A stretch of DNA of 64,000 nucleotides from Bacteroidota bacterium. Lineage in GTDB: Bacteria > Bacteroidota > Bacteroidia > Chitinophagales > Saprospiraceae. The position numbers and the translations under genes were made by a program. Positions 4,697 to 43,201 of this stretch are shown one piece after another. Positions within the stretch are counted from its first letter, which is position 1; each line of letters starts with the position of its first letter. A model generated the notes under the pieces. That model was given only the letters and a program-made list of their open reading frames with translations, was not told the DNA's origin and did not search any database. Location of the stretch: the NCBI GenBank assembly GCA_017857395.1, contig JAFMDF010000007.1, positions 1 through 64,000 of the forward strand, in the 5' to 3' direction.

Positions 4697-5507
4697 CAAA
4701 CGTTTTTAAAAGCCATCTATTTTATTTTATTCCACTATCGGGTACTTTTCTTTTCTGCTATTTACTGACAAAACACCCGTTTTTTGTACTAAACAAGGTT
4801 TTTTCGTAAAAAAAATTGCTTTTCTAAATACTATCTCCTAATTTTACCAAAAATATTCTATATTGTTATAATACTATATCCCAAGTAATTAATAATTTAG
4901 ATATTTTTAGAATCGTCGATTTTATACGCTAAAATAAGTATATTTCGATATTCAATTTTTTTTCCCAGAACAACGACATCCATGAACAGCACAATCTTTA
5001 CCTCGTATTCCCGTTGTAGGAATCCTCTCCCTAGGATTTTGTCTAGCAACTATAATCAACCACCAATCATAGCAGCGCATCAAATTCGTTCTGTCAAAAG
5101 CAGAAAGGAAGTTCCTATTTGGTTTGATACTTTCCGTTTCCTCCAATATTTAGGAATAAACATTACGCATTATAATAAATAATAATATTTATTTGCATCA
5201 ATCTGAGGCGATTGAACGTAAATGTAGAGTGATTTGGCGTAATATTTGCTGAAATCAATTACATTTGCACCAATTGTTACTAATTAACTGATAGTTAAGG
5301 ACTTTTACATTATTATGTGTAATATATATTACCCAGTTACCGATCGATTTAAAACCTACCTGCATGATGTGGCGATGTATCCCTATTGCTCAAGAACAGA
5401 TATTCAATTAAAAATTTAAAGATTATTTCACTCTTCCAATGATAATAGTGAATACCAAAAACCGTAATATGCCGCACCCATTACATAATTTTAAAATTAA
5501 TGGTAAA
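4697..5507. other. Intergenic region, no supported gene
   Basis: AT-rich. Around 4952-5182 both strands have open frames of about 65 codons; neither looks like a known protein. The minus one ends in a Cys-rich tail (CAVHGCRCSGKK) and a neighbouring frame upstream starts MFIPKYWRKRK, so a frameshifted remnant on the minus strand is possible. A small hairpin AATCCT/AGGATT is at about 5021-5038. A weak promoter for the next gene is at 5233-5267. Confidence 0.4.
5233..5267 (+). promoter_or_regulatory. Possible promoter of the HYR protein gene
   Basis: TTTG at 5233-5236 and TACATTTG at 5260-5267, spacing 23, close to the Bacteroidota consensus but at the long end of the spacing range. A leader of about 235 nt to the chosen start would result. 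Confidence 0.35.
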
Positions 5508-8500
5508 ATGAAATATTTTACTGAACCACTTTATAATAAGGTTGTGCCTTTAGCCTTATGCTTTTTCTTAGCCAATTTCCTTTTTATAGAGGCAGTTGTG
5601 GGCCAATGTACCTTTACACCATTGTTAACAGACTCTATTAAAGTGGAAGTTAGCGCAAATGCCGATAGTAGAGTGCTAACTTTCGCAGAATTAGCGTTAA
5701 TACTTGGGCAAGATTGTCCTAGTACACCTTCTAACACCTTACATCTCTGGATGACCTATCCTGTTATGGGCGGAACTAGTCTTCCTGTTTATTTAGGAGA
5801 AGATATTAATGATAATAAAACTGTTACAATTACTTGTGCTCAGGACTTTGATGAGATGCAAGATTTAGGTGGAGATATGGGTATAGATAATTTTAATGTG
5901 CCTTCAGGAAGTCAGGTTACTTTTTATTCTGCGCCACAAGAATCTGTTGGAGGCTATACACCAATAGAAGATGGTGTTGCAGCTTTTGTAAATATTGTTC
6001 TATTTATGAATGATAATGATGGTCCAGTAGTAGATACTAGACCAACTGCTCGCCCATTTCCTGATACAGTAACTATAGATTGTTCTCAGGATACAGCAGC
6101 TTATGTAGCGATTGGAACAACAGGAATGTTTGCGCCTAATTTAGTGGACACATTTCCTAATAATATGAATCCATCAACGGATACTGTTGCACTTGCTCCT
6201 ACCATGTTTGATTGTAGTGGTTCTAGTACTAGAACTCATTTTAGTCAAACCGTAAATAATACCATAGATATAGCTACGAAGCAGATTTTAGAAATTTCTA
6301 GAAAATGGGTCTTTACAGATAATTTAGGTAATGTATCTGACACTATTAGGCAAATAGTTAAAGTGATAGATACAAATGATCCTGTATGGTTAGATCCAAC
6401 GGAAATTGATACTTTTCAAATGGCAGGCAATCCTAGGAGACCTTTGGATAGCATTAGTTTTAGTCCTAACACGCTTAATGTACATCTAGAAAGGAGTGAT
6501 CCAAATTTTCAGACTGCCTTAGATTTTTGGGCAAGGGATTACACACCAATTTTAATTGATTCCTGTTTTGGTGGTATTAAAGATACTATTCGAAATACAC
6601 CTCATATTGTTCAAAGTATTGCTAATGATACGTCAACGCTTAATATTCTGGGCATTATTATTCAAACTATAACTCGGACTTTTATTGGGACGGATAGAGC
6701 TGGAAACCAGTCGACATTTATTTTAAAGATTATTACCCGCGATGTGGAACCACCTAAAGTAATAGATACACCATTTGTCAATGCGACTAGACCATTTGAT
6801 GTAACAATTTTAGATGCGGTAACCTCTGATAATAAGGACACTATTAATGTAACTGTATTTGTAGATAAAAATAGTTGTGCAGCTTCTTTTGACAATGATG
6901 ATATTAATATAATAGTTAGAGATACTATTTCTAAAGCAAATGTTACCTATGAATGGCAGGTAGATTCATTAGATGTTATGTCTGTAGCTCAAACTAGCAT
7001 AAACTATCCAGTTACGGGGAATGATAGCATCGCCTCAACTAGTTATGATGCAGGAAAGTATCGTATAAGATATAAATATCAAGATGAAGGTCTCAATGAA
7101 GGAATATTTACTATCTTCTTAAACGTCCAGACGCATGCACCAGTAGTGTCAGCAGCAAATGGCCCACTTAGCACTGACTTTGACAGATACTTTCCGAGTA
7201 GCGGTAGTGGCAGTGGCCTTGGCGTTTCTGCTAAAATAGATACTTTTGTCTTATTTACTGTTCCTACTGTACTAGGGACTAATTCTTGTCAAACGGTTGT
7301 TTCTGATTCTTTATTTAATATTACGGCAGTAGATACTTTTGATAATGATGCTGTTGAATATCGACTTCTTTTAGAAAGAATCAATCCTGCTACTGGAGCA
7401 CCTATAGGATTGCCTATAATCCAATCAACTGACAGTACTTTTTCAGCTGGTGCGTTACCTGTAGGAATGTATAATATTACTTATACTTTTCAGGATATTT
7501 CTATGTGTCCAACACCAGATAGTATAAGATATGTATTAGTCGTGCAGGACACTTTCTCTGGAAGAGTTGATTATACCAATGCTACCTTTGGAACAAATGA
7601 TTCTTTAACGGTAGTTATTGCAGCTGCGGATGACTGTGAAGCTTCGATTAATTGGGATGAACCTTCTTTCTCTGATTATTCTGACTGTAGTAATGCGGAT
7701 ACAGCGGTTTCTATTATTAGAAAAGTTGTAAGTGGACCGTCTTTAGAAATTTTTGATGGACAACCATCTGCCCAAGCTAATGCAGGTTTAGATATTGATA
7801 TAGATGTTCCTGTTGGAACTACCCTGATTCGGTATGTCTTTACAGATGCTTTTGGCAGTACAGATTCTACGGATTTAGTCGTAATGGTATTAGATACAAT
7901 TGCTCCAGTAGCGGCTTGTCCTTCCTCGATACTTATCGACCGAGACCCCGTGACTTGTATGGGCATAGCTGGTAATTACCGTAACTTTATTACAGATAAT
8001 TGTATACCAAATGCAGATTTAGTCATTACGCAAACACCAGCGCCTAATGATACTGTAATGGACGGTCAAACGATTAGCTTATTCCTAGATGGCGTACTGG
8101 CTTGTAGCTTTACCGCTGAATTGACGGATTTAGCACCGATGCCTTTATTACCACTACCAAGAGATACGGTCGTTAATTGTGGGTTAATAGAATTACCTGC
8201 TCCAAGAGCAACCGTTTGTGGGCAAACAGATACCATATTTGCACTACCTAGAAATAGAGGCCAAATAAATATTAGCACCTCCTCTCTACGAACTTATATT
8301 TTTGATAGCAGAGAAACGACTATCGTTTGGGAATTTTTTGATAGTTCGACCCCCGAGGTTAGACGGATTGTGCAAGAAATTACTTTCTTACCAGATAATA
8401 TCACGCCAGTCGCTGTTTGTTATGATAGTATAACGGTGTATCCTGATACTTTTGGGACGGTAGTTATTTCGCCTAGCGACTTAGATAGTCTTGGATTAAG

Positions 8501-11500
8501 TAGCGATAACTGTACCGCAAAGGCAGATTTAACCATGTCTGTAAGTATAGATACCATTAGGACTTGTGATTCTTTAGGCAAATCTTTCCCTGTATATTTA
8601 TTTGTAACAGATGAGGCGGGTAATAAAGATTCCTGTATGAGTATCGTTACCGTAATAGATAACCTAGGGCCTATTTTTCAAGATGTTCCAAAAGATACCA
8701 TTTTAGATTGTAGTGCGATAGTTCCTGGGCAAGCAGTTTTAGCGGTGATAGAGAATTGTGGCGGAATAGATACAATGTATATGGATACCGTTAATACTCG
8801 AACCGTATTAGACTCTATGGTAACACTAAGACCTGATACAATGTCTGGTTACCACAATTATTCCATTACTTATACTTGGACTGCTAAAGATACTGCTGGC
8901 AATGTAGGTATGGCGACTCAGGTGGTTACGGTGGTAGATACTACAGCGCCAAAAATTGACTATGATTCTATTTTATTAGTGGGGTCGGAAGCGGATGCGA
9001 CTATATGTAGCGCAGATGTAAGTTTAAATTTAAGAGAAAAAGTAAAAGATGCCTGTTATGACACTTTAAAATATTTAGCGATTGCAGACGCTAATAAAGT
9101 GGTTATCCATGATACTTTAGATATCGTGAATATAAGGGTGAGAATGGGAGACACGACGGTATATATCATAGCAGAAGATTTTGCAGGAAATAGAGATACC
9201 CAAAAATTAATTATTAGAGTTGATGACCAAACAGACCCTCGTCCAGTTTGTATCAATGCAGTTGCATTATCTGTCAATGCTTTTGGTTATGTCGCCATTG
9301 ATAGTGCGGATATTAACTTAAATTCTACAGACAATTGTACCGCAGCCAATGATTTAAGATTTGAATTGAGTAGAGATACCTTCCGATGTAGTGATGTAGG
9401 AAGTACTTTTGAGGTAATCATGACGGTAATTGACGAGGCAGACAATCGACATAGTTGTTCCGCACAAGTAACGATTCAAGATTTTACGGGGACGGGTTCT
9501 TTTGCTTGTCCAGATAATGTAACCATAGCCTGTGATGCTTCTATTGATCCAGAAGATACAGGCACGCCAACAATTACGGATGTCTGTGGAGATAATAGTA
9601 ATCTTGCTTTTACGGATAAACTAACAGCAGGAAGTGGTATAGGAAATGTTTGTCAAATAATTGAAAGAACTTGGGCGGTAACGGATACGTCGGGCACTGT
9701 AACTACTTGTGTGCAATTCATTAGTTTAGTGGATAGTATCGCTCCTGTATTAGCTCAAACTTTTAGGGACACAACGGTCGCTTGTATTGCTGACGCTATA
9801 ACAGCAGATTCAATATTGGCAACAGATAATTGTGTAGCAGATGCTTATGCACATGCCAATGAAACAATTACGATTGGTACAAGCAGCATTACTTTACAAA
9901 AGATTTGGACTGCTTCTGATAGCTGTAGCACTTCGGCTGATACGCAGTTAATTACGATTGTCGATGTAATAGCGCCAGTCATTACGCTTCCCTCTGATAC
10001 TTTTGTTTATAATACAGGAGACTTAATACCAGATTCTTGTGGTGTTTTTGTGACGATAGATTTTGCGCAATTTGTTACAGACTGTAATGCTATTTTAGGT
10101 TTAAGGGTTGGATATGACGGACAAGATTCTACGGCAATTTTATCAAGATCTTTCCCAGTTGGCGAACATACCGTAATGATAACAGCAAAAGATACTAGTG
10201 GAAATATAGCGACCAAAAACATTGTGATTGATGTCAATGATACATCTACACCAACCATTATTTGTGTAGAAAATCTAGTCATTTCTTTAGGAACAGGTGG
10301 AACAGGAACTTTGCAAGTAAGTAATGTACTAAGTTCGGTATCAGATAACTGTGGAGACATCTCGTCAATAGATACGATTTTCTTATCTCAGACAGTATTT
10401 AATTGTTCAGATTTAGGGATGCAGCAAGTTACGTTAACGGCAATAGATACTTCAGGGAATATAGGCACCTGTGTTTCCAATATAAATGTAGTAAATCAAG
10501 GGAACACTGATTTTATCTCTATTGAGACATTTAGTAAAGATGAATCTATTACAGGCCTAAAAGATGGAGAAGCATGGGTGAATGTAACGGGCGGTTCTGG
10601 TAATTATACCGTTCAATGGGATAATGCGCCAGACAACTCGACAACCGATACCATTAAAAATTTAGCACCAGCTTTATACACGGTTATAGTAAATGACGCC
10701 ACTACAGGTTGTCGATTAACCGATACTGTTCGAGTGAATGGTGGTAATATGGTTACTTATGAAATTGGGGAAGTAGCTGGAATGCCAGGAACGATTGTGC
10801 AAGTACCCGTAAGCGTTACAAATTTTACGAATGTAACGAGTATAGATATGTCCTTCAATCTTTCAAATTTAGCAGTTGCTCAATTTGTGGCAGGGAATGA
10901 AGCTGGAGGATTTACCGTACCTGGCATTAATTTAACGAGTTTTAATATAGATCCAGATAATTCAAGCCGTTTATTACTTGGCGCTAATTTAAATGTACAA
11001 ACAGGAGAGACCGTAGCTGATGGAACAGTTGTTTTCTATATTAATATTCAATTAGCACCAAATGCAACTATTGGTAGTTCGACTAATATTACAGGTGGCG
11101 GGAATTCTGAAGCAGATTTGAAAACTGGTGTATTGATTAATGATTCACCAGTAGATTTAGTGGCTCAAAGTACAAGTGGTGCGGCTAGCGTTACTAACGT
11201 AGATAATAATGTAGCTTTCGGTGGACAAATTAATTTGATTAATGGCAATCCATTGGCAAACGCTACAGTTGTCTTTAGCGGAGATGTTTCTAGCGAAGAT
11301 TCTACGGGAACAGATGGTGTTTATAATGTAACAGTAGCTTCGGGACAAAATGTGACCATCACACCAACCGAGAATGAAAATGCTAGAAATGGTTTGAGTA
11401 CGTTTGATTTGGTTTTAATTCAAGACCATATTAATAGAAGATTATTAGATTCTCCTTATAAGCGATTGGCAGCGGATGTTAATAAGTCAGGTTCAGTTAC

Positions 11501-12452
11501 GGTGCTTGATATTATCGAAATTCAAGATGTCATTCTTAGAAGGACTCCTACTTTCGCAGACGTACCTTCTTGGGTATTTGTGCCAGCAGACCATATATTT
11601 ACGGATACACTTGATCCATACAATGGAACAGTACCGACTTCTATCACGGTTGCTAGTGCTAGTGCTGCTGATACTGCTATGAATTTTATAGCGGTCAAAA
11701 CAGGTGATGTTAGTTTAGATGCGGAAGCGATTCGATTACAAAGCGGTATTGCAGCAACTGATAGAAATAAAGATTTCAACTTCCAAGTGACCGATCAATT
11801 ATTACAAGCAGGCACTTATGTAGAAATTCCTTTCAAAGCGAACAACTTTAATGACATCAGAGGATATCAAATGACTTTAGATATAGCTAAAGATTGGTTG
11901 ACTTTTGAAAGCGTTAAAGCAGGGGCACTTGCAAATATTACTAAAGACAATTTCAGTTTTACAAATATAGCACAAGGACAGATTGCAACAAACTGGTTTG
12001 ATGCGACTGCTCAAACAGTTGCCGACGACGCTACTTTATTTACTTTGATTTTCAAGGTGAATAAGACAGGGAATCAATTGAGCGAAGTACTCGAAATTAC
12101 TTCTGATATGATTCAAGCAGAAGCGTATACGGATGAACTGTTTTATAAAGGAATAGATTTGGTCTTTGAAGAAAATTCAGCTATAGAAAAAACTTTTGAA
12201 TTGCTTCAAAACAAACCAAATCCGTTTAGACATGAAACGACGATAAGTTTCAATTTACCAGAGAATGCTCCAGTAATGCTCCGATTCTTCGATTTTAGTG
12301 GTCGCTTAGTTCACCGGATTAAAGGAGATTATTCAAGTGGAATGAATCATATTACTATCAGCAAAAATGACCTTTCTGCGAATGGTGTATTGTATTATGA
12401 ATTATCAACATCAGGCTTTACAGGAAGAAAGAAAATGATAGTATTAGACTAA
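5508..12452 (+). CDS. Giant HYR-repeat T9SS cargo protein with dockerin and cohesin-like domains
   Basis: About 2314 residues from ATG 5508, which begins a normal signal peptide (MKYFTEPLYNKVVPLALCFF...VVGQ); ATGs at 5439 and 5469 would only add a polar 23- or 13-residue stretch before it. Residues about 170-1680 are many HYR/Ig-like repeats marked by DNTxP/DTTAPK turns, paired Cys and AxDxxGN motifs. Then come an SprB-like repeat (about 1686-1744), a cohesin-like beta domain (1750-1885), a carboxypeptidase-regulatory-like fold (1902-1954), a duplicated dockerin-type segment (1955-2013, second loop DVNKSGSVTVLD), another cohesin-like domain (about 2090-2220) and a T9SS type A C-terminal domain (from LLQNKPNPF to the end, GRKKMIVLD). 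It is therefore secreted by T9SS and anchored or released at the surface; likely adhesin or scaffold. A word hairpin follows the stop. Confidence 0.87.
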   Translation: MKYFTEPLYNKVVPLALCFFLANFLFIEAVVGQCTFTPLLTDSIKVEVSANADSRVLTFAELALILGQDCPSTPSNTLHLWMTYPVMGGTSLPVYLGEDINDNKTVTITCAQDFDEMQDLGGDMGIDNFNVPSGSQVTFYSAPQESVGGYTPIEDGVAAFVNIVLFMNDNDGPVVDTRPTARPFPDTVTIDCSQDTAAYVAIGTTGMFAPNLVDTFPNNMNPSTDTVALAPTMFDCSGSSTRTHFSQTVNNTIDIATKQILEISRKWVFTDNLGNVSDTIRQIVKVIDTNDPVWLDPTEIDTFQMAGNPRRPLDSISFSPNTLNVHLERSDPNFQTALDFWARDYTPILIDSCFGGIKDTIRNTPHIVQSIANDTSTLNILGIIIQTITRTFIGTDRAGNQSTFILKIITRDVEPPKVIDTPFVNATRPFDVTILDAVTSDNKDTINVTVFVDKNSCAASFDNDDINIIVRDTISKANVTYEWQVDSLDVMSVAQTSINYPVTGNDSIASTSYDAGKYRIRYKYQDEGLNEGIFTIFLNVQTHAPVVSAANGPLSTDFDRYFPSSGSGSGLGVSAKIDTFVLFTVPTVLGTNSCQTVVSDSLFNITAVDTFDNDAVEYRLLLERINPATGAPIGLPIIQSTDSTFSAGALPVGMYNITYTFQDISMCPTPDSIRYVLVVQDTFSGRVDYTNATFGTNDSLTVVIAAADDCEASINWDEPSFSDYSDCSNADTAVSIIRKVVSGPSLEIFDGQPSAQANAGLDIDIDVPVGTTLIRYVFTDAFGSTDSTDLVVMVLDTIAPVAACPSSILIDRDPVTCMGIAGNYRNFITDNCIPNADLVITQTPAPNDTVMDGQTISLFLDGVLACSFTAELTDLAPMPLLPLPRDTVVNCGLIELPAPRATVCGQTDTIFALPRNRGQINISTSSLRTYIFDSRETTIVWEFFDSSTPEVRRIVQEITFLPDNITPVAVCYDSITVYPDTFGTVVISPSDLDSLGLSSDNCTAKADLTMSVSIDTIRTCDSLGKSFPVYLFVTDEAGNKDSCMSIVTVIDNLGPIFQDVPKDTILDCSAIVPGQAVLAVIENCGGIDTMYMDTVNTRTVLDSMVTLRPDTMSGYHNYSITYTWTAKDTAGNVGMATQVVTVVDTTAPKIDYDSILLVGSEADATICSADVSLNLREKVKDACYDTLKYLAIADANKVVIHDTLDIVNIRVRMGDTTVYIIAEDFAGNRDTQKLIIRVDDQTDPRPVCINAVALSVNAFGYVAIDSADINLNSTDNCTAANDLRFELSRDTFRCSDVGSTFEVIMTVIDEADNRHSCSAQVTIQDFTGTGSFACPDNVTIACDASIDPEDTGTPTITDVCGDNSNLAFTDKLTAGSGIGNVCQIIERTWAVTDTSGTVTTCVQFISLVDSIAPVLAQTFRDTTVACIADAITADSILATDNCVADAYAHANETITIGTSSITLQKIWTASDSCSTSADTQLITIVDVIAPVITLPSDTFVYNTGDLIPDSCGVFVTIDFAQFVTDCNAILGLRVGYDGQDSTAILSRSFPVGEHTVMITAKDTSGNIATKNIVIDVNDTSTPTIICVENLVISLGTGGTGTLQVSNVLSSVSDNCGDISSIDTIFLSQTVFNCSDLGMQQVTLTAIDTSGNIGTCVSNINVVNQGNTDFISIETFSKDESITGLKDGEAWVNVTGGSGNYTVQWDNAPDNSTTDTIKNLAPALYTVIVNDATTGCRLTDTVRVNGGNMVTYEIGEVAGMPGTIVQVPVSVTNFTNVTSIDMSFNLSNLAVAQFVAGNEAGGFTVPGINLTSFNIDPDNSSRLLLGANLNVQTGETVADGTVVFYINIQLAPNATIGSSTNITGGGNSEADLKTGVLINDSPVDLVAQSTSGAASVTNVDNNVAFGGQINLINGNPLANATVVFSGDVSSEDSTGTDGVYNVTVASGQNVTITPTENENARNGLSTFDLVLIQDHINRRLLDSPYKRLAADVNKSGSVTVLDIIEIQDVILRRTPTFADVPSWVFVPADHIFTDTLDPYNGTVPTSITVASASAADTAMNFIAVKTGDVSLDAEAIRLQSGIAATDRNKDFNFQVTDQLLQAGTYVEIPFKANNFNDIRGYQMTLDIAKDWLTFESVKAGALANITKDNFSFTNIAQGQIATNWFDATAQTVADDATLFTLIFKVNKTGNQLSEVLEITSDMIQAEAYTDELFYKGIDLVFEENSAIEKTFELLQNKPNPFRHETTISFNLPENAPVMLRFFDFSGRLVHRIKGDYSSGMNHITISKNDLSANGVLYYELSTSGFTGRKKMIVLD

Positions 12453-12453
12453 A

Positions 12454-12533
12454 ACATTTATATCAATTGTCGGTTATCAGTTGTCTCTTTAATTTTATAG
12501 GAGCAATTGATAACTGGCAACCGATATAAATGT
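12454..12533. repeat. Word-type hairpin element after the first HYR gene
   Basis: ACATTTATATC at 12454-12464 pairs with GATATAAATGT at 12523-12533. Inside, TTGTCGGTTATCAGTTGTC on the left faces TGATAACTGGCAACCG on the right. The same words occur in the elements at 34672-34730 and 44221-44288. It may also terminate transcription. Confidence 0.7.
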
Positions 12534-12748
12534 CTATTTTCGGCTGAATACCAGCTTTTTATAGAAGCTCTAAAGACTAATCACTAACTTTGCCAAAAAT
12601 CGATTAAATGAAGTGCCTAGATTTATCCAACATGGATAGAAACCTTTCCTTAGTCATCCACGATGACCAACTACTTCCTCGATTTTTCCAAGCATTATTA
12701 ATAATTTGCCGATAGGTCTATGTCTCTATGGTTTTAATACCAAATTAT

Positions 12749-15700
12749 ATGCATAAGAAAATATACCTGCTCACTACTATGCTTTTTTTAAGTTATCTCA
12801 GCTTACAAGCTCAGATTACTTTAATGTTTCCCAATCAAGACATTCGATGTCAAGAAGCGATCACTTTTCCCGTTGTTGTTGAAAACTATGCAGGGGTTAG
12901 AGGTGGACAGTTTTCTATTAATTGGGATACAACTGCTTTAGATTACCTAGGCAGTACAAACGTAAATATAACGCCTGACCCCAATATCAATATAGATTCC
13001 ATAGCGAATGGGAAATTAGCCCTTTCTTGGTTTAGTGCCGACTTGGATACCTTACAAGATGGGGACACTTTATTTACGCTAGAATTATTTGTCAAAAATG
13101 GTAATTTAAGCAATTTACCGCTTTCTTTATCGGATGATTTTGTACCTAATTTAATAACATTGTTTATTAATGATAGACTACAAGAACTACCAGCAAATAT
13201 AGAAAATGGAACACTTACATTAATAGATGATACCCCTCCAACCATTACCTGTCCTGCAGACCGAACAGTCGTCAATACAGGCGGAAATAGCCCAGTTGTT
13301 ATTACGGGACTAAGCCCTATAGATGTAGCAGATAATTGTGGAATAATAGCTACTTTAACCTACACGTTTTCTGGAGCGACTTCAGGAAGTGGGATGGATG
13401 ATGCCAGTGGAATAGCTTTTGAGGTTGATACGACGGATATAACGTATACCGCTAGGGATGCTAAAGGGAATGAAGCCACATGTACTGCCCAAATAGTTGT
13501 CAATAGCGCAGGTGATGTTAGTACAGTTGGCATAGGATTAAATTCAGTTACGGCAGCTTGCACAGATACCGTTGTAATGCCAATTACGGTAAGTGATTTT
13601 GATAGTATTACCAGTCTAGGATTTTCCGTAGGATGGGATGTCAATACTTTTTCTTTTGCAGGAATAAGCGATTTTGCAATCGCTAGTATGATGCCTGCTG
13701 ATTTTGAGATTACTCAAGGAAGCATTACTTTGGCTTGGACAGATACAACTGCTCAAACACTAACAAATCAAGCGACTTTATTTAACTTACAATTAGTACC
13801 TAAAACAATTGTTAATAATGCGCCTATTACCATTTCAAATGGGAGTGCAGCAAAAAATAATAGCGCAATACCTGTTGGTATTAGTGGACAAGGGACAATA
13901 ACCGTTTCAGCAGATAATTTACAGATTGTTTGTCGAGATAATGTAGTTGCTGAACTTCCAGCAGGACAAACCCAAGCTACCGTTTCCGATATTGGTACAG
14001 GAATGATAACAGGTAATTGTGGAAATACTTCGATTACCTATACTTTATCAGGTGCGACAACAGGTGGAGGAGCAAATGATGCCAGTGGAACCCTGTTTAA
14101 TATAGGAACAACTACGGTAACTTATATAGTAGAGAATGCGACGGATGAAACGACAAGTTGTTCTTTTTTAGTTGAATTAACGAGTCAGGCGCCAACTAAT
14201 TTTACCTTAATTGCAGAAAGTAAAAGTGCAGGATGCGATGAGACAGATATTTCCATTGATATTAATGTGGCTGCTTTTGACAGTATTAGCGGTACAGAAT
14301 TTTCTATTAATTGGGATCCTGCTGTTTTAAGTTATACAACTACAGATAATCAATTGTTCCCCACTGGTAGTTTTGGGCCTATAGATAATACCAATGGTCG
14401 AATCAATTACTCTTGGTTTGATAATTCCAGTGATGGACAAACTTTAGCGGATGGAGCGACCTTATTTACGATGCACTTCACTTCTAGTGGAGGTGGTGTC
14501 TCCCCTATTGAATTTTCTGATATACCCAATGCCATTGAAATAACCCAAAGGGATAATGGTGTTCCTGTCAGAATAGCTAGAGATTCTATTATTTTAATGG
14601 CAGGAACGGTAACGATTATTGATACCATTCCACCAACCATTTCTTGTTTTAATGATGTAGAATTAAGTCTTCCTTTAGGAACAGACAATACCGTTATTAA
14701 TGGGATTGATTTTAGTAATCCAATGGATAATTGTGGAGTAGATTCCATTTTTTATACAATAAGTGGGACTACTTTAGGAAGTGGGCAAGGTTCAGCTAGT
14801 GGTGTAACTTTCCAAGCTGGCGTATCAACGGTTACTTATACCATAGTAGATAATGCGGGCTTAACAGGAACTTGCCAATTCCAAGTAACGCTTAATGCGC
14901 CAAATGCTATCAATGTTACCCCAACAGTAACGGATGCGGAATGTGGAGCTGAGTTATATCGAGTGGATATGATTGTTGATAGTTTTACGAATACAGCAGG
15001 TTTACAATTTACTTTTGAATGGGATAATACCATTTTAGAATATGCAAGTCGAGGCAATTTAGGATTACCTGAATTGGATGATAGTGATTTTAATGAAACG
15101 TTAGTGCAAGATGGACGCATTGGATTTGCTTGGGCAGATGATGGGTCTGTAGGAGAAACCTTACCTTCAGGAGCTATTCTTTTTAGTTTATTCTTTAAAG
15201 TAAATGGAACAGCAGGTAATACCTCGAATTTCACCTTTACAGATGCCATAGCAGAACGAGAAGCGAGTATTAGATTGAATGGTACACCTATTAGAGTACC
15301 GTTCATTGGGAATAATAATCAAATCACAGTAGTAGATAACCAAGCACCGATGTTGATGGTTGGTTTACCTGATACATTATTCAGATTTGTAGCAGATACT
15401 TGTGGGGTCACAAGAGATTGGGAAATACCAACTTTTGCGGATCAATGTACCAGTAATTTAACCTTGACCGTAAGCCCTCCAGAAGGAACTTTTTACGAGG
15501 TAGGTGACCATACAATTGTTTATACCGCAAGTGATGAATCTGGGAATAGTACGACGGAAAGTACTTTATTAATAGTAAGAGATACAACAGCGCCTACTTT
15601 AATAGACTGCCCAGCAGATATGACGATAATGGCAAATGCCAATTGTCAAGCGATTGCTACTTGGACAGAACCAACGGCGATAGATAACTGCTCAGATGCA

Positions 15701-18220
15701 ATTATCATTGTTTCTAGTACGCATAGCCCAGGAGATGAATTGACAGGAACAACCACCGTTACTTATACGGCAGAAGATGGTTTTGGTAATCAAGCTACCT
15801 GTTCTTTTGTCGTAACTGTTGAAGGATTAACCCCTTTAACTTTTAATAATTTCCCTGGCAATATTACCTCCAACGAGACAGCAGGACAATGTGGAGTAGT
15901 CTTGGGATGGTTAGAACCTACCGTTTCAGGAGGATGTAATAGCAATAGCACAGATTCCATTACGGTAACTAGTACGCATCAACCAAGTGACTTTTTCCCT
16001 GTAGGTACAACTACGGTGGTTTATACTGCAACAAATCATACAACGGGACAAATGGTTGAACAATCATTTGTTATTCTAGTAAATAGAGTACTCGACCCAT
16101 TATCACTGTGTCCTCAAGACATTGAAATACAAGCAGATGGAACGGTTATGAATGATTTTCTTGGTTTTATTAATGATGTTAGAACGGATACTTGTGGAAG
16201 TTATATTATTACTTTCAACGATATTCAAGTACAAAATGATTGTGGTATCATCAGACAACAAGTAGGAGGACCAACTAGTGGTAGTGAATTTACTTTTGGC
16301 ACGGAGATGATGGAATTTATGGTCATTGATACAATTGGGCAAGATACAACTACTTGTATGTTCCAAATAAAAGTCAATGAAACAAGTGATTTAGAAGCGA
16401 CTACTTTAGATGACCCAACTTGTGCAGGTTCGGATTTACGCTTATCTGTTAATGAATTGATAGGGGGAACTTACCAATGGTCTGGCCCAGGTGGTTTTAT
16501 TGCCAATATCCAATCACCGACCATTCCAAATGCCATGACTCAAAACTCAGGAGAATACATCGTTAAGGTGATTTCTACGAATGGTTGTACCATCAAGGAT
16601 TCTATTATGGTCGGAATTTTATCAGGACCAGAAGTATCCGCTATGGGAGATGGATTAAGTTGTTCAGGAGAAGCGGATACACTTCGATTATTTGTAAGCC
16701 CAGTAGGCGCTATTCCAGTGCAAAACTATTTTTGGAGATTTCCTAATGGAGATAGTACAGATTTTCAAAATCCAATAATTCCTGATGCAACGATTTCAGA
16801 TGCTGGATTATATATTGTCACGGGTACTTCTAGTAACGGTTGTTTCGATATGGATACCGTGGTCATAGAGCCCGCAGGAATGGTGGTGCCTACCATAATG
16901 AGTGATGCAACTATGGATACGCTTTGTGCCAATTCATCAGTAATTTTAACAGGGACAGCTTATGAAGGAGCTGTGATTTATAATTGGATGGCTTCTTCGG
17001 AGGCAGGTTTACCAACTAATGTAGATGCCAATGTGATTACCGTAACACCAACAGCACCGGGAACTTATACCTATGCTTACACGGCTAATTTGGATGGTAA
17101 TTGTATATCCGATACCGCTAGGATTACATTAGTAGTAGGGGATGGGACAGGCGCAATTACGCTAGGAAGCAATGGCCCGTTTGAATGTGCTGATCCTAAT
17201 GGAACGATTAACCTTACGGCAATAGGAGGCACGAATGTCCAAACTTATGCATGGACAGGGCCAAACAATTTTGTTTCCAGCGAACAAAATCCGATTCTGC
17301 CAATCAGCAATGAAGCAGCAGGAACGTATACGTTAACTGCCACTTCTTCTGAAGGCTGTACTTTCACAGATAGTATAGCGGTTACGATAATGACCCAAGA
17401 AACAGAACCTATCATAACGGCTTCGACGGGAATAATAAATGCAGGCAATTTAAATGCTTGTGAAGCGGATGCCTTGATTTTATCAGGAGAAGCGATTACT
17501 GATGCCATTTATGTTTGGACTGGGCCAAATGGTTTTGCGTCTACTGACCAAGCGATAACTATTCCTAATGTGATGGAGAGTGATGCTGGAATTTACCAAT
17601 TAAGGATTACCGTCAATGGTTGTACATCGCTTCCTGCTTCTGTATTATTAAATATTTTGACAGAGCCTACGGCGAATAACGATAGTATTAATGTTATCCG
17701 AAATCAGTCCTTGACTTTCAGTGTTACAGATAATGATGACTTGCTTCCAGGAACTGCATTTACCGTAACTCAGATTCTAGATGCAGATAATGGGACGTTA
17801 GTAAATAATAATGATGGCACCTTTACTTACACACCAGATAATAATTTTGTAGGAATGGATCAAATAGCTTATGATGTATGCTATGAAGATTGTCCTAATC
17901 TGTGTGATATGGGAGTAATGACTATCCGAACAGAATTTCCTTCAGAACCTTGTGTCATACCGACTTTCATCTCTCCTAATGATGACGGTTTCAATGATGC
18001 TTTAATCATTTCTTGTGTGGCTAATCCGCCTAAGGTTGGTAGTGAATTAATTGTATTCAATGAGTGGGGTTCAGAAGTATTTCGAGAATCTCCCTACCAA
18101 AATAATTGGCAAGGCACCTATAATGGACAAGACTTGCCTGATGGCACTTATTATTACATTTTTAAAGAAGATAATGATGATAATGACCCCAAAAAGGGAT
18201 ATGTCACCATATTTAGATAA
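12749..18220 (+). CDS. Giant cohesin/HYR surface protein with CHU_C (gliding-motility type) C-terminus
   Basis: About 1823 residues from ATG 12749, where a clean signal peptide starts (MHKKIYLLTTMLFLSYLSLQAQ); ATG 12728 adds only seven residues. Four cohesin-like domains (about 25-160, 260-385, 480-625, 715-860) share the pattern FSINWD..L.Y and ITxAWxD...LADGATLFxLxF. They alternate with HYR domains (TCPAD/ISCFND, GTTTVTYTA), then two or three more HYR units (860-1120), Ig/PKD-like units with GPGGF, GPNNF or GPNGF (about 1215-1640), a cadherin-like unit (1640-1735; NNNDGTFTYTPDNNFVG) and the type B-like CHU_C sorting domain (ISPNDDGFNDAL... to DLPDGTYYYIFK). It is predicted to be exported by T9SS and held at the cell surface. 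The PorP/SprF gene directly downstream is the usual partner of CHU_C proteins. Its cohesins could bind the dockerin of the preceding gene product. Confidence 0.87.
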   Translation: MHKKIYLLTTMLFLSYLSLQAQITLMFPNQDIRCQEAITFPVVVENYAGVRGGQFSINWDTTALDYLGSTNVNITPDPNINIDSIANGKLALSWFSADLDTLQDGDTLFTLELFVKNGNLSNLPLSLSDDFVPNLITLFINDRLQELPANIENGTLTLIDDTPPTITCPADRTVVNTGGNSPVVITGLSPIDVADNCGIIATLTYTFSGATSGSGMDDASGIAFEVDTTDITYTARDAKGNEATCTAQIVVNSAGDVSTVGIGLNSVTAACTDTVVMPITVSDFDSITSLGFSVGWDVNTFSFAGISDFAIASMMPADFEITQGSITLAWTDTTAQTLTNQATLFNLQLVPKTIVNNAPITISNGSAAKNNSAIPVGISGQGTITVSADNLQIVCRDNVVAELPAGQTQATVSDIGTGMITGNCGNTSITYTLSGATTGGGANDASGTLFNIGTTTVTYIVENATDETTSCSFLVELTSQAPTNFTLIAESKSAGCDETDISIDINVAAFDSISGTEFSINWDPAVLSYTTTDNQLFPTGSFGPIDNTNGRINYSWFDNSSDGQTLADGATLFTMHFTSSGGGVSPIEFSDIPNAIEITQRDNGVPVRIARDSIILMAGTVTIIDTIPPTISCFNDVELSLPLGTDNTVINGIDFSNPMDNCGVDSIFYTISGTTLGSGQGSASGVTFQAGVSTVTYTIVDNAGLTGTCQFQVTLNAPNAINVTPTVTDAECGAELYRVDMIVDSFTNTAGLQFTFEWDNTILEYASRGNLGLPELDDSDFNETLVQDGRIGFAWADDGSVGETLPSGAILFSLFFKVNGTAGNTSNFTFTDAIAEREASIRLNGTPIRVPFIGNNNQITVVDNQAPMLMVGLPDTLFRFVADTCGVTRDWEIPTFADQCTSNLTLTVSPPEGTFYEVGDHTIVYTASDESGNSTTESTLLIVRDTTAPTLIDCPADMTIMANANCQAIATWTEPTAIDNCSDAIIIVSSTHSPGDELTGTTTVTYTAEDGFGNQATCSFVVTVEGLTPLTFNNFPGNITSNETAGQCGVVLGWLEPTVSGGCNSNSTDSITVTSTHQPSDFFPVGTTTVVYTATNHTTGQMVEQSFVILVNRVLDPLSLCPQDIEIQADGTVMNDFLGFINDVRTDTCGSYIITFNDIQVQNDCGIIRQQVGGPTSGSEFTFGTEMMEFMVIDTIGQDTTTCMFQIKVNETSDLEATTLDDPTCAGSDLRLSVNELIGGTYQWSGPGGFIANIQSPTIPNAMTQNSGEYIVKVISTNGCTIKDSIMVGILSGPEVSAMGDGLSCSGEADTLRLFVSPVGAIPVQNYFWRFPNGDSTDFQNPIIPDATISDAGLYIVTGTSSNGCFDMDTVVIEPAGMVVPTIMSDATMDTLCANSSVILTGTAYEGAVIYNWMASSEAGLPTNVDANVITVTPTAPGTYTYAYTANLDGNCISDTARITLVVGDGTGAITLGSNGPFECADPNGTINLTAIGGTNVQTYAWTGPNNFVSSEQNPILPISNEAAGTYTLTATSSEGCTFTDSIAVTIMTQETEPIITASTGIINAGNLNACEADALILSGEAITDAIYVWTGPNGFASTDQAITIPNVMESDAGIYQLRITVNGCTSLPASVLLNILTEPTANNDSINVIRNQSLTFSVTDNDDLLPGTAFTVTQILDADNGTLVNNNDGTFTYTPDNNFVGMDQIAYDVCYEDCPNLCDMGVMTIRTEFPSEPCVIPTFISPNDDGFNDALIISCVANPPKVGSELIVFNEWGSEVFRESPYQNNWQGTYNGQDLPDGTYYYIFKEDNDDNDPKKGYVTIFR

Positions 18221-19449: not shown

Positions 19450-21828
19450 ATGAAAAAAATAATTTTACTTTTTAACTTATGTTGGTTAGCAGCAAACTGC
19501 TTAGTCGCTCAAAGTGCCTTGAGTCCAGACGTAAAAGTAGAAGTTAAAAATGAACAAACAGTTAATACTGGGGCATTAGAATTTAGTCCTGCTTTTTATG
19601 AGAATGGAATTGTTTTTATCTCTGATAATAAGGTAGGGCAAGACGACAATCGGTATACCGATGAAGATATTGCCAGAAAAACGGTGTCTATTTTTTTAGC
19701 GAGAAGAAATGAGGATGGCGCATTGAATGCAGCTGTCCCATTTGCGGAAGAATTAACGACACAATGGCACGAAGGCCCACTTACTTTTAATAAAACAAAT
19801 GATAAAATATTCTTTAGCAGAAATGATTTTTTGGATGGGAATGTAGATAAGGCAAGTGACGGTGTCGTGAAGCAAATGATAATATCTGCGGATATGGCAG
19901 GCGGTAAATGGAGCAATCAACAGCGTTTGCCCTTCAATGATAAAGAATATGATTTTGTCCATCCTTCTATTAATGTCGATGATAATGTCTTATATTTTTC
20001 TTCTGACCGACCTGGAGGTTTTGGTGGTATGGACATCTGGAAAGTTGAAAAGAATGGAACAACTTGGGGCGTACCCGTCAATTTAGGCGCTGGTATTAAT
20101 ACGTCTAGCAACGAAGTATTTCCTTTTATTCATGCAGATGGCACTTTATTTTTTTCCTCGAATGGGCACGGCAGTATGGGAGGTGGAGATATTTTCTTCA
20201 GCAAACCATTTAATGGAGAATATGTCAATCCCGTCAACTTAGGTGCTAAGTTTAATACCAATTCAGATGACTTTGGTTTCATTATAGACCGAGACAAAAA
20301 AAATGGCTACTTCTCGTCTAATCGAGATGGTGGCAATGGACAAGATGATATTTATAGCTTTTTTATAGACGAAACCTTAGGCGAAGATATTTTTCAATAT
20401 CCAGAGAACCATCCTGCTTACTTAGCATCTAATGGAGCAATCAATCAGCCTGGTGGAGGTAGTGGTGGGAATATTAATGGACAAAATCCTAATGCCTCAG
20501 GAGATGGTTTCGGAGATAAGGTGTTGACGCTATTTGTAGCTGACCGTTTAACAGGTACAGAATTAGGAGATGCCGTAATAGAATACGTAGATTTAGCGCA
20601 ATTGACAAATACAGAAATTGTTACCGATCAAGACGGTAATGTGGTACAATTAATTTCTTCGGATGATGGTTCAGTTGTTACGTTATCCACTGTGGATAAT
20701 GCTGTCAAAGGCACAACAAATGCAGAAGGTGCTTACGACTTAAAATTAGGTGATGGTAATTATTTGGTGAATATTACTAAACCAGGTTATAAACCCAAAC
20801 AAATATTGGTGACGGCTAATAACCAAGAAGAAATATTGACTTTAATGGATAAAGCAGGTGATTGTAGCACTATCAATGGAATGGTAGCTAATGCAAGTAA
20901 TAACCCTGTACCTGGAGCTAAAATTGCGATACAAGAAGAAGGGGATTTAACGGCATTAGATGTAACGACCGATGCAAGCGGTAATTTCTCTGTTTGTTTG
21001 GAATGTGGAAAAACTTATATTATTACGGTCTCTAAAAACGGTAAAAGTACCTCAGACAATATAACCGTAAGTGCCGATTGTAATGGTGGACAAGCGCAAT
21101 CCATAAACTTTAACTTAGATGCTGGTGGCTTAGTAGGTGGAACAACTATTCGTTTGGAAAGAATTTATTATAATTTTAATGATGCTTCCATTCGACCTGA
21201 CGCTAGAGACGAGTTAAACGCTTTAGTAGCTATCTTAAAGAACTATCCAACTTTAGAAATTGAAATAGCTTCTCATACAGATTCGAGAGGTGGCAATTCT
21301 TATAATAGGCAACTTTCTCAAAGACGAGCGGATAAAGTAGTCGCTTACTTGGTACAACAAGGTATTAGCGCAGGAAGGTTAACTCCAATGGGTTATGGAG
21401 AATCTAAATTACTCAACCAATGTAGTGACGATGTACAATGTAGTGAATTAGATCATCAATATAATAGAAGAACAGAAATAAGTGTTAGAGAATTCGATGA
21501 TCCTATTGGCGTAGAATATGTATCTAATGCACCAGAAACAGTGGATAATGCACCAAGTTCTGTTACGAGTGGAGGCGGTAATTATGGGAGTAGTGATGGT
21601 GGTCGTTACCAAGTAGTTGCAGGTTCTTTTTCTAGTCGAACTAATGCAGATAATAGATTATCAAGGGTACAGCAATTAGGTTTTGATAATGCTAAAGTAA
21701 TTAGAGGTAGTGGTGTTGCTAGGAATATTGTTTTAGTTAAATCTTTCTCCAATTATAATCAAGCAAGAGAACTAGCGGATGAAATAGAAAATGTCCATAA
21801 TATTAATACTTATGTGAAGCGGAATTAG
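19450..21828 (+). CDS. OmpA-family protein with PD40 propeller, regulatory-like domains and SPOR domain
   Basis: 792 residues with signal peptide (MKKIILLFNLCWLAANCLVAQ). Residues about 40-310 hold PD40/WD40-like propeller blades (FSSDRPGGFGGMDIWK, FFSSNGHGSMGGGDI, YFSSNRDGGNGQDDIY). Two carboxypeptidase-regulatory-like domains follow (about 400-465 and 470-555), then an OmpA C-terminal peptidoglycan-binding domain (about 567-685; IASHTDSRGGNSYNRQLSQ), and last a SPOR domain (about 718-792). The first four parts resemble PorE-like and other T9SS-associated OmpA proteins, which tie outer-membrane machinery to peptidoglycan. SPOR binds denuded glycan strands at division sites and is an unusual extra here. 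It closes the HYR/PorP block; a strong terminator stands 29 bases after the stop. Confidence 0.9.
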   Translation: MKKIILLFNLCWLAANCLVAQSALSPDVKVEVKNEQTVNTGALEFSPAFYENGIVFISDNKVGQDDNRYTDEDIARKTVSIFLARRNEDGALNAAVPFAEELTTQWHEGPLTFNKTNDKIFFSRNDFLDGNVDKASDGVVKQMIISADMAGGKWSNQQRLPFNDKEYDFVHPSINVDDNVLYFSSDRPGGFGGMDIWKVEKNGTTWGVPVNLGAGINTSSNEVFPFIHADGTLFFSSNGHGSMGGGDIFFSKPFNGEYVNPVNLGAKFNTNSDDFGFIIDRDKKNGYFSSNRDGGNGQDDIYSFFIDETLGEDIFQYPENHPAYLASNGAINQPGGGSGGNINGQNPNASGDGFGDKVLTLFVADRLTGTELGDAVIEYVDLAQLTNTEIVTDQDGNVVQLISSDDGSVVTLSTVDNAVKGTTNAEGAYDLKLGDGNYLVNITKPGYKPKQILVTANNQEEILTLMDKAGDCSTINGMVANASNNPVPGAKIAIQEEGDLTALDVTTDASGNFSVCLECGKTYIITVSKNGKSTSDNITVSADCNGGQAQSINFNLDAGGLVGGTTIRLERIYYNFNDASIRPDARDELNALVAILKNYPTLEIEIASHTDSRGGNSYNRQLSQRRADKVVAYLVQQGISAGRLTPMGYGESKLLNQCSDDVQCSELDHQYNRRTEISVREFDDPIGVEYVSNAPETVDNAPSSVTSGGGNYGSSDGGRYQVVAGSFSSRTNADNRLSRVQQLGFDNAKVIRGSGVARNIVLVKSFSNYNQARELADEIENVHNINTYVKRN

Positions 21829-41503: not shown

Positions 41504-43201
41504 ATGAAACCAAGAATCTGGGTAAAAGAAATAAAATTTAGCGAAGGTCTTTCAATTGAATTAGAAAAAGACGAAATCATTTTATTTGTAGGTCCTAATA
41601 ACGTTGGTAAAAGCGTATCACTTAAAGAAATCAATGGCAAAATTTCGAATAGAAAAATGAAATCTATCATTGTATCTGATGTGGAACTGAATAAAGAAGG
41701 AGAAGAAAAAGACTTATTGGAACATATAAAATCATCGGCAATAGTAAATGACCAAAGTAATCCCACAAATCCAACTTTACAAACATTTAAATTAAGTAAT
41801 CAACAAAGTCAGATAAGTAATAGTTGGACAAATCATAAAAATGGAATATCAATTTTACAGGGGTACTTTTCAAATTTCCTGACAACTACTGGAAGACTTG
41901 TCGCAGTTAACCCTCCAAATAGTATTTCTTTTATTGGACAAGCACCTACACATCCAATTCATTTTCTTCAAAGAGATGATAAATTAGAAATTCAGTTTAG
42001 TAAATATTTTAATCAAGCATTTGAAACCGACTTGATAGTAAATAGAGGTGCTGGTTCGCGAGTCCCAATCCATATTGGTAAACGACCAACTCCTTCTGGT
42101 GATGAAGATAGGATTTCTTTGAGCTATGTTAAAAAAATAGAAGAACTCCCAAAATTACATGAACAAGGTGATGGAATGAAAAGCTTTGTTGGAGTGCTAT
42201 TGAATTCATTTATTTCTCAATATTCAATAGTTTTAGTTGATGAACCAGAAGCGTTTTTACATCCTCCTCAAGCAAGATTACTTGGTAAAATGATAGGTAA
42301 AGAATTGCCTTACGATAGACAATTGTTTTTAGCATCTCATAGTGGAGATTTTTTAAGAGGTATTTTGGATTCGGGTTCTCAAAAAGTTAGAATAATAAGA
42401 ATTGATAGAATTGCAGATAGAAATAAAATTTGTGAATTGAAACCGACCGAGATAAATGAACTATGGAAAGACCCTCTTTTAAGGCATTCCAATGTACTTG
42501 ATGGAATTTTTCATAAAAAAGTAATTATCTGCGAGAGTGATTCAGATTGTCGCTTTTATTCAGCTATTCTACAAGCAGTAGTAGAAAAAAATAGTTTAAG
42601 TAGTCCTGACTTTATGTTCATTCATTGTGGAGGAAAACATCGGATTCCTCAAGTAGTAGGTGCATTGAAAAAATTAAATGTGGATATATCTGTAATTTGT
42701 GATTTTGACGTTTTGAACAATGTAAATCCCCTTGGTAAAATAGTAGAGAACCTTGGAGGAAATTGGAATGCTTTAAAACCTCAATGGAAAATTGTTAAAA
42801 ATGCTATAGATAAAAAGAGACCTGAACTTGAAACTGAAGATGTGAAAAAAGAAATAAATGAAATTCTTAACAATATTTCTGACAGAATCTTTCCAAAAGC
42901 AGAAGCAAAAAAAATCAATTCAGCATTAAAGAAAATTTCAGCATGGAATTATGCTAAACAAGTTGGTAGTTCTTTTATCCCTTCTGGAGACCCAACATCT
43001 AATTTTCAAAATATAAATAAAGAATTTAAGAAAATTAACTTATTTATTGTTGAGGTGGGAGAATTAGAAGGTTTTTGCAGAAGTATTGGAAACCATGGAC
43101 CGAAATGGGTAAACGAAGTTTTAGAAAAAGAATTAAAAAATGAAACCGAGTTGCAAAACGCAAGGAACTTCATTAAAGAAATAATAGAAAATAATGCATA
43201 A
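41504..43201 (+). CDS. OLD-like AAA ATPase with TOPRIM domain
   Basis: 565 residues. The ATPase part has Walker A GPNNVGKS (30-37), a long insertion, and Walker B VLVDEPEAFLHPPQ followed by FLASHSGDFLRG (His switch). The C-terminal part carries TOPRIM marks: IICESDSDCRFY (Glu near 342) and VICDFDVLN (Asp-x-Asp near 398-400). This ABC-ATPase plus TOPRIM nuclease layout is that of class 1 OLD proteins and Gabija GajA; many members act in phage defence. No partner helicase (gajB) or reverse transcriptase lies next to it, so it would be a stand-alone OLD protein. The flanking 41401-41503 and 43202-43260 are distinct from the surroundings in being free of the word elements, and acquisition by transfer is plausible but unproven. 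Confidence 0.82.
   Translation: MKPRIWVKEIKFSEGLSIELEKDEIILFVGPNNVGKSVSLKEINGKISNRKMKSIIVSDVELNKEGEEKDLLEHIKSSAIVNDQSNPTNPTLQTFKLSNQQSQISNSWTNHKNGISILQGYFSNFLTTTGRLVAVNPPNSISFIGQAPTHPIHFLQRDDKLEIQFSKYFNQAFETDLIVNRGAGSRVPIHIGKRPTPSGDEDRISLSYVKKIEELPKLHEQGDGMKSFVGVLLNSFISQYSIVLVDEPEAFLHPPQARLLGKMIGKELPYDRQLFLASHSGDFLRGILDSGSQKVRIIRIDRIADRNKICELKPTEINELWKDPLLRHSNVLDGIFHKKVIICESDSDCRFYSAILQAVVEKNSLSSPDFMFIHCGGKHRIPQVVGALKKLNVDISVICDFDVLNNVNPLGKIVENLGGNWNALKPQWKIVKNAIDKKRPELETEDVKKEINEILNNISDRIFPKAEAKKINSALKKISAWNYAKQVGSSFIPSGDPTSNFQNINKEFKKINLFIVEVGELEGFCRSIGNHGPKWVNEVLEKELKNETELQNARNFIKEIIENNA

Follow-up and report, generated by a model that had tools for sequence, protein, structure and literature searches.

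Cohesin and dockerin modules on neighbouring giant T9SS cargo proteins of a Saprospiraceae genome: a candidate surface assembly with no glycosidase found

Genes and modules at the locus

The window analysed, 64,000 nucleotides at the start of contig JAFMDF010000007.1 (Saprospiraceae assembly GCA_017857395.1, 10.15 Mb in 631 contigs), contains two neighbouring genes for giant proteins, P0001 and P0002, that carry cohesin (Coh) and dockerin (Doc) modules together with sorting domains of the type IX secretion system (T9SS). The genes lie head to tail and are followed by a SprF-family gene, P0004, and then by an OmpA/PorE-like gene (Table 1). P0002 and P0004 form an SprB/SprF-type arrangement in which a type B giant precedes a SprF-family gene, and the genome also encodes SprA_N (445 bits).

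P0001 occupies an open frame from 5439 to 12452 (2337 aa) and probably starts at Met24, at 5508, the start also chosen in the initial annotation of this stretch. An iterated profile placed its cohesins at approximately residues 1783-1885 (Coh1) and 2123-2231 (Coh2), and a Pfam scan of the whole protein listed Cohesin at 34.1 bits in two stretches, above the cut-off. The dockerin segment, which is duplicated and lies between both cohesins, comprises loop 1 (NENARNGLSTFD) at residues 1979-1990, whose position 5 is not acidic, and a canonical loop 2 (DVNKSGSVTVLD) at residues 2013-2024. The score of this dockerin against Dockerin_1 (PF00404) was 15.4 bits, below the gathering score of 22.9, and Pfam alone would therefore miss it. 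It aligned over its full length with paralogues that exceed the Pfam cut-off, and the surrounding C-terminal unit, here called the cassette, scored 340 bits with the A1 profile, which was built from 26 aligned cassette rows of the source genome, the P0001 copy among them. The P0001 tail matched TIGR04183 at 23.2 bits (cut-off 23) and Por_Secre_tail of Pfam at 20.2, below the cut-off of 27.

The P0002 cohesins were detected with the A3 profile, derived from 26 scaffold-type cohesins including the four of P0002 itself, and scored 66-90 bits with a second profile that was seeded from contig C250 and iterated across proteins of the same genome, P0002 included. With Pfam Cohesin, two of the four passed when scanned by domain, one fell narrowly short (23.3 against 24.1) and one was unlisted, while a scan of the entire protein listed no Cohesin. 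Since the P0001 dockerin and the P0002 cohesins are both weak in Pfam, each was assessed through its relatives. The profile matches bear out the earlier description of four cohesin-like domains alternating with HYR units in P0002, and the sorting-domain matches (TIGR04183 for P0001, CHU_C and TIGR04131 for P0002) agree with its assignment of both proteins to T9SS cargo.

Table 1. Features of the P0001-P0002 locus (window coordinates)
Feature	Coordinates	Strand	Description
P0001	5508..12452	+	Giant T9SS type A cargo with HYR-type repeats; end is Coh1, X module with Doc, Coh2 and C-terminal sorting domain (CTD)
Conserved leader at P0001 start codon	5415..5522	+	92.7% identity over 109 nt with locus L051
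Coh1 of P0001	10761..11093	+	Divergent, upstream of cassette; A3 profile 37.0 bits, iterated profile 52.3 bits
X module of P0001	11205..11720	+	Transthyretin-like/CarboxypepD_reg-like sandwich hosting the inserted dockerin (predicted); last strand precedes GDVS
Dockerin of P0001	11373..11540	+	Loop 1 NENARNGLSTFD; loop 2 DVNKSGSVTVLD at 11475-11510; three helices
Coh2 of P0001 (cassette cohesin)	11763..12170	+	Pfam Cohesin 41.1 bits at 11784-12122
CTD of P0001, T9SS type A	12186..12449	+	TIGR04183 23.2 bits
P0002	12728..18220	+	1830 aa; four cohesins amid six HYR stretches, then Ig/Big_9 domains and T9SS type B tail
P0002 cohesin 1	12815..13174	+	101.6 bits (A3 profile)
P0002 cohesin 2	13532..13855	+	100.3 bits (A3 profile)
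P0002 cohesin 3	14204..14566	+	115.7 bits (A3 profile)
P0002 cohesin 4	14915..15295	+	121.3 bits (A3 profile)
CTD of P0002, T9SS type B (CHU_C)	17957..18211	+	CHU_C 79.9 bits, TIGR04131 45.6 bits
P0004	18303..19256	+	T9SS membrane protein of the PorP/SprF family, third in the conserved gene set; TIGR03519 215.2 bits
OmpA/PorE-like gene	19450..21828		Downstream of the SprF-family gene

The repeated cassette and its relatives

Genome-wide Pfam searches gave 31 dockerin matches, all above the cut-off and many on T9SS cargo, and 26 cohesin matches; dockerins are accordingly not confined to P0001, a finding on which the initial annotation had made its proposal depend. The repeated C-terminal unit spans approximately 330 residues and consists of an X module, a dockerin, an extension and a cohesin, followed in most copies by a sorting domain. 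Of 59 matches to the A1 profile in the source genome, 30 span dockerin and cohesin and lie in 29 reading frames, one of which has two copies, four are X-dockerin only and 25 are cohesin-only or X-only. The dockerin precedes the cohesin in all 30 near-complete cassettes.

The A3 profile gave 62 cohesin matches in the same genome. With the iterated profile, multi-cohesin proteins were found to carry seven (C250), eight (C179), five or six (C145) and four (P0002) cohesins; a Pfam scan detected none of the eight in C179, although both of our own profiles find them. The C250 cluster comprises a gene for a single-cohesin protein of 263 aa, the seven-cohesin gene, a SprF gene and four cassette genes. 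At contig end the C179 scaffold (L130) continues into MopE-type metal-binding repeats, and C384 (L131) opens in repeats of this type and has one further cohesin as well as a type A sorting domain; the two are possibly one gene split by assembly.

Three proteins of the source genome (C435, C62 and C466) end in X-dockerin with neither cohesin nor sorting domain; proteins of this kind lie at L133 (242-865), L134 (599-2497) and L037 (69-1103). Such proteins possibly reach the surface by docking onto other cargo. A second type of dockerin protein, with Por_Secre_tail (Pfam scan of L032 and L042), was noted at L032 (7736-8827), L031 (9783-10874 and 5516-6622) and L042 (7469-10003); an extra domain between its dockerin and tail is perhaps cohesin-like, as judged by eye.

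Comparison of the A1 profile with solved structures matched the ScaB dockerin 4uyp_B (3.2e-8, profile positions 72-130) and the type II cohesin 3l8q_A (1.6e-6). This match, together with paralogues that pass Pfam, indicates that the duplicated dockerin-type segment first noticed between the P0001 cohesins is real. The A3 profile matched 5nrm_A best (9e-8) and also 1g1k (2.4e-7); its twelve top matches were all cellulosomal chains, and the 19 listed comprised 17 cellulosomal or cohesin chains and two designed Ig-like proteins.

AlphaFold2 modelled P0001 residues 1905-2337, from an alignment with 93 relatives, at a predicted local distance difference test score (pLDDT) of 92.5 and a predicted template modelling score (pTM) of 0.81. 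The predicted model contains three helices (84-95, 102-108 and 118-128) where dockerins have helices. In the VIA comparison of its Coh2 part (model residues 205-340), rows 1 to 25 were all cohesins or cohesin-bearing chains with Z from 13.5 to 10.6, the best being 3ul4_A (Z 13.5, root-mean-square deviation (rmsd) 2.5, 125 residues aligned) and other top rows 4dh2_C and 4ums. The possibility, raised at the outset, that the cohesin-like domains are unrelated Ig folds was in this way ruled out for Coh2 by its predicted fold and, at profile level only, for cohesins of the scaffold type, Coh1 and the P0002 cohesins having been assigned by profile. The last domain of the model resembled residues 1055-1157 of the PorU chain 6za2_A (Z 10.0, rmsd 2.5, 87 aligned).

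The X-dockerin part was also modelled alone (pLDDT 92.4, pTM 0.85), and residues 19-184 of this model aligned over approximately 80 residues with transthyretin-like and carboxypeptidase-regulatory-like domains at VIA Z 6-7.6, which falls short of 8, the value from which the tool recommends trusting a match; CarboxypepD_reg was found by Pfam in cassette paralogues. As the X sandwich is closed by a strand that follows the dockerin, the dockerin appears from the models to be inserted in a transthyretin-like domain rather than placed behind a separate X module, and the natural X-dockerin-only proteins end just past this closing strand. The VIA lists of both models contain no dockerin row, their rows being taken up by the larger sandwich, and Foldseek placed the type II cohesin-dockerin complex 5k39_B at rank 30 (rmsd 11) for the X-dockerin model. 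Identification of the dockerin is carried by the sequence profile. Over 94 aligned rows, loop 2 has D1 in 94, N3 in 93, S5 in 76 and D12 in 94, and loop 1 has D12 in 94 with D or N at position 1 in 82 and at position 3 in 71.

The order of the genes is conserved as well. At L051 a P0002 orthologue (48% identity) comes after a full-length P0001 orthologue (38%), and at L078 P0001-like, P0002-like and SprF genes are consecutive; persistence of the pair elsewhere at approximately 30-48% identity makes the observation more than chance. A family search with P0002 gave matches in 101 of 150 genomes, many through the tail only, and 20 P0002-like loci were picked by hand among strong rows extending beyond the tail (L213 barely so), leaving strong rows such as G062:C520, G078:C36, G400:C25 and G403:C134 outside the set. 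The next upstream gene on the same strand encodes a cassette protein in 14 of these loci, and in 13 of the 14 this protein has, as P0001 does, an additional cohesin; at a fifteenth (L208) the upstream cassette protein scored 82 bits, under the 100-bit cut, and at the remaining five the frame begins at, or within approximately 100 bases of, a contig end. A cassette gene was thus upstream at 15 of 15 testable P0002-like loci, as opposed to 0 of 20 control loci, where P0002 had matched only through its Ig/type B tail and where no cassette gene was seen even below threshold, four of these loci showing no upstream gene. Of the 20 P0002-like proteins, 17 showed cohesins and the exceptions (L195, L202 and L213) are truncated at contig ends; a SprF gene followed in 19 cases.

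Among 20 further loci chosen for arrays of 2-10 cohesins, a single-cohesin gene of 252-327 codons lies directly ahead of the array in 14. A cassette gene lies in the stretch in 12, with the cut end of one in a thirteenth (L223); this rate is biased, since the proximity of arrays and cassettes had already been seen when the loci were chosen. Locus counts throughout are not independent trials, because loci within each set share descent and the choice of array loci was not blind.

A scan of named genomes, from which the best 80 matches were kept, yielded at least 79 loci, 59 of those listed being labelled Saprospiraceae or Saprospirales and the rest Bacteroidota, Chitinophagales, Phaeodactylibacter or Lewinella. 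The 79 listed loci contain at least 104 cassette matches over 150 bits, of which 96 reach a stop codon 70-130 residues on and eight overrun the fetched DNA. In a family sample of 100 genomes, own genome included, a cassette match of any strength was present in 95 and a strong match (best E 5e-50 or lower) in 89; a larger family draw gave some match in 383 of 398 genomes. In a phylum sample of 296 genomes, cassettes over 100 bits were present in five of six family members (own included) and in 2 of 290 others. A3 cohesins were found in 91 of the 100 family genomes, and the nine without them are all within the 11 without a strong cassette; the two distributions are not independent, as A3 also scores cassette cohesins. 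In another Bacteroidota family (f17; for example L172, L173 and L175), the X-dockerin profile gave matches of up to 51 bits without cohesin, which lie in long frames, some of them interrupted.

Cargo, co-variation and readings of the modules

Pfam scans covered 34 cassette or dockerin proteins (P0001, 19 giant proteins and 14 others), with C297, two C423 dockerin proteins and the C225 remnant lying outside the scan. All 29 cassette frames are included, a few of them truncated where a contig or the fetched DNA ends. No glycoside hydrolase (GH) was found on any of the 34, and P0001 and P0002 have no glycosidase module by Pfam, as the initial annotation had stated. On the 19 largest cassette proteins 24 Pfam families were present at 1e-5, among them Por_Secre_tail, CarboxypepD_reg, SdrD_B, SprB, PKD, DUF11 and HYR, with NPCBM_assoc on one. 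A further 17 proteins (the 14 with cassette or dockerin and three cohesin-only) likewise showed no glycoside hydrolase; present among them are a haem peroxidase of animal type, a redoxin and, on L022, a Laminin_G_3 domain, the Pfam description of which cites the lectin/glucanase superfamily. C435, in which Pfam scored only the X module, resembles a serine endopeptidase by motif only. No carbohydrate-binding module (CBM) was found in P0002 or C179, the two scaffolds scanned with Pfam out of P0002, C179, C250 and C145. A cellulosome reading was rejected on these grounds, and a cellulosome-like complex with overlooked enzymes is highly improbable: the peroxidase, the redoxin, C435, Laminin_G_3 and the single NPCBM_assoc speak for it, whereas no GH family was found in the 34 proteins scanned and no CBM in the two scaffolds scanned.

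Co-variation between dockerin and cohesin was analysed in an alignment of 308 rows, of which 275 were kept (gaps under 25%, duplicates removed; effective number of sequences approximately 239), 19 of them from loci of the 398-genome draw. The strongest Doc-Coh couplings were 119-271, 77-269, 119-269, 77-311 and 120-257, where 77, 119 and 120 are dockerin-repeat positions 10, 17 and 18. X-Coh and extension-Coh pairs contributed none each to the top 50 (8.3 expected in each case) and X-extension pairs four (3.8 expected). Cassette positions 231, 269 and 271 were aligned by eye with N37, L83 and A85 of the CipA cohesin; of the CipA contact list, only the five residues placeable by eye were used. 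The contact columns exceeded entropy-matched sets (mean, 0 of 20000 draws; top five, p 0.0003), these columns and the residue classes used on the tree having been chosen after the couplings were seen. Mean scores of the top 5 and top 20 were above those of every shuffle, 24 within clusters and 13 full; the single top score was exceeded by at least one of the 24 within-cluster shuffles, which weakens the co-variation. On the tree with the chosen classes, 119 and 271 changed together on seven branches (1.1 expected) and 77 and 269 on four (0.4 expected). Without chosen classes, 77-311 had the highest rank among 8190 pairs (p 1.6e-5, which Bonferroni correction raised to a non-significant 0.13), 119-271 ranked 165th and the best X-Coh pair had p 0.006.

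The signal largely contrasts the P0001 type, 17 of the 275 rows with both sides changed, with the 258 other, generic rows. Among the latter, T77 is present in 243, R119 in 228, G231 in 239 and S269 in 234, and E311 is mostly retained; counts for the 31 rows from the source genome are 28, 26, 27 and 24 for the same four residues. Cohesin Q233, which we take from our own alignment to correspond to D39 of CipA, is present in all 17 P0001-type rows. The co-variation is moderate and mainly between subfamilies, and it would be compatible with cis binding, with binding from one copy to another and with a joint loss of constraint alike.

We favour, at roughly even chances, the reading that P0001 and P0002 are one local version of a cohesin-dockerin surface assembly, non-cellulosomal and carried by the T9SS, that is widespread in Saprospiraceae. 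P0001 would be type A cargo in which a plug, the dockerin within the X module, adjoins a socket, Coh2, ahead of the sorting domain, and P0002 a SprF-linked type B adhesin presenting four more sockets. After secretion, dockerins would dock into cohesins in a calcium-dependent manner, presumably with the usual dockerin helix-1/helix-3 face against the cohesin sheet, and would thereby join the multi-cohesin adhesin to cassette proteins, which might also be linked with each other. The outcome would be a proteinaceous coat or fibre at the cell surface and not an enzyme complex. Assembly in trans is favoured because gene order and the dockerin-only proteins require trans partners (C435, C62 and C466, which lack both cohesin and sorting domain, would each need one) and because the generic interface is fairly uniform among paralogues. 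Also in favour of the assembly are the identity, fold and copy number of the modules, the constant distance of the cassettes from the stop codon, the loop 2 ligands and co-variation at canonical contact positions. The surface scaffold of mutually attached proteins proposed in the initial annotation gains in the same way from the linkage of cassette and multi-cohesin genes and from the dockerin-ended proteins without cohesin, while attachment of P0001 to P0002 in particular is an inference.

Several observations weigh against this surface assembly. Doc-Coh pairs as a class fell short of expectation, with 3 of the top 50 couplings as opposed to 8.6 expected. The P0001 dockerin has Q119 and D120, whereas the other rows have R119 in 228 of 258 and K, R or Q at 120 in 250 of 258; as P0001 departs in this way from the generic recognition residues, its dockerin may be re-tuned or weakened. 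Position 5 of loop 1 is Leu in 45 of the 94 rows and Arg in 11, P0001 being in the Arg group. Seven of the 20 array loci have no cassette (some are cut by contig ends), control locus L249 encodes a protein with five cohesins but has no cassette gene in the vicinity, and genome G070 has a P0002-like four-cohesin gene and yet no strong cassette match. Dockerin and cohesin also adjoin in one chain, and the dockerin may therefore be occupied in cis.

This last point leads to the main rival, in which the dockerin binds the following cohesin of its own chain and forms a rigid, calcium-stapled stalk before the sorting domain, which would serve long T9SS cargo as a structural device, with no inter-protein scaffold; we regard it as possible, though only tentatively so. 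Attachment within one polypeptide, the other option of the initial annotation, stays alive in this form, given that dockerin adjoins cohesin in the cassette and that predicted contact residues co-vary within the chain. The constant Doc-Coh order of the 30 near-complete cassettes, the pTM of the four-module model, which suggests a defined arrangement, and the co-variation (shuffle means, contact columns and the rank of 77-311) all agree with it. Such a clasp leaves unexplained the multi-cohesin genes beside cassette genes, the arrays of up to ten cohesins and the X-dockerin proteins without cohesin, and co-variation that mostly sets the P0001 type against the rest cannot separate binding in cis from head-to-tail binding between copies. 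Loss of mutual binding in P0001 and P0002, whose modules would then be relic spacer folds in giant adhesins, is quite improbable. The sub-cut-off dockerin of the window, its loop 1 position 5 without an acidic residue and the joint change of both interface sides in the P0001 type, as joint loss of constraint would also give, speak for it; against it stand the near-invariant loop 2 ligands in 94 rows (P0001, L051 and L078 included), the retention of Q233 in every P0001-type row and the conserved gene order.

A broader form of the trans assembly seems somewhat unlikely. Because generic cassettes share a largely unchanged interface, the approximately 30 cargo proteins of one cell could be exchanged or chained; the cassette would then be a general docking code, its cargo exchangeable on multi-cohesin, SprF-linked adhesins or joined in chains, with dockerin-only proteins carried along and P0001 and P0002 serving as a second channel whose interface is matched separately.

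Known systems and other features of the window

Cohesin-dockerin assembly is known mainly from the cellulosomes of anaerobic Clostridia, and Peer et al. in 2009 reportedly described cohesins and dockerins outside cellulosomes. The proteins analysed here share with clostridial cellulosomes the cohesin fold, a duplicated dockerin with calcium loops, multi-cohesin scaffolds and an X module tied to the dockerin. They differ in that no glycoside hydrolases were found, in that T9SS sorting domains replace SLH or sortase anchors, in that the dockerin is predicted to lie within the X domain rather than after it, and in that most dockerin proteins found bear a cohesin of their own. In SprB/SprF-type T9SS adhesins a giant with a type B CTD is followed by a PorP/SprF gene; P0002 likewise precedes such a gene and is distinguished by its cohesins and by the dockerin-cassette gene upstream.

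Paenibacillus guangzhouensis has 28 proteins with a single dockerin-cohesin pair, and nearly all of its dockerins are in cohesin proteins (PMC11557425). These monovalent adaptors resemble the cassette proteins in having one Doc-Coh pair per protein, while this organism is Gram-positive and its proteins are SLH-anchored, many with GH enzymes (PMC11557425). The survey in that paper demanded a GH-dockerin gene, and its main text does not contain 'saprospir' (PMC11557425). A multi-cohesin scaffoldin with a CTD proposed for cell-surface attachment is described for Ca. Stygibacter (Cloacimonadota); in this other phylum, GH18, GH57 and peptidases are docked and the scaffoldin has CBMs (PMC8542988).

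Within open-licence PubMed Central, no published description of the cassette in Saprospiraceae was found. The recurrence of cohesin and dockerin across a Bacteroidota family, borne by T9SS cargo in a module architecture of their own and with no glycosidases found on it, suggests that cell-surface proteins may be assembled in a way that has drawn little notice. If binding were confirmed, it would provide a mechanism for the surface organisation of giant T9SS adhesins in Saprospiraceae and supply protein engineering with new plug-socket pairs. As a caution for annotation, 'dockerin' in Bacteroidota need not mean cellulose degradation.

The start of P0001 is more conserved than the protein, which has only 38% identity with its counterpart at L051 against 92.7% nucleotide identity across the 109-nt start block; for this reason the open frame probably begins with 23 codons of leader, and the block may have a regulatory role, to judge from its conservation. 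An Rfam element was rejected for this leader after a permissive search of 4700-5700 gave only a snoRNA (E 0.85). At gathering score, Rfam found none in the leader, none at L051 and, in the window, only a tRNA and a DUF805 RNA (RF03081), a cis-regulatory RNA family, at 47917-47981 on the minus strand (57.4 bits, gathering score 51.1). The window also encodes, at 41504-43201, an OLD-like protein with an AAA_21 ATPase and an OLD-type TOPRIM domain, a possible defence gene.

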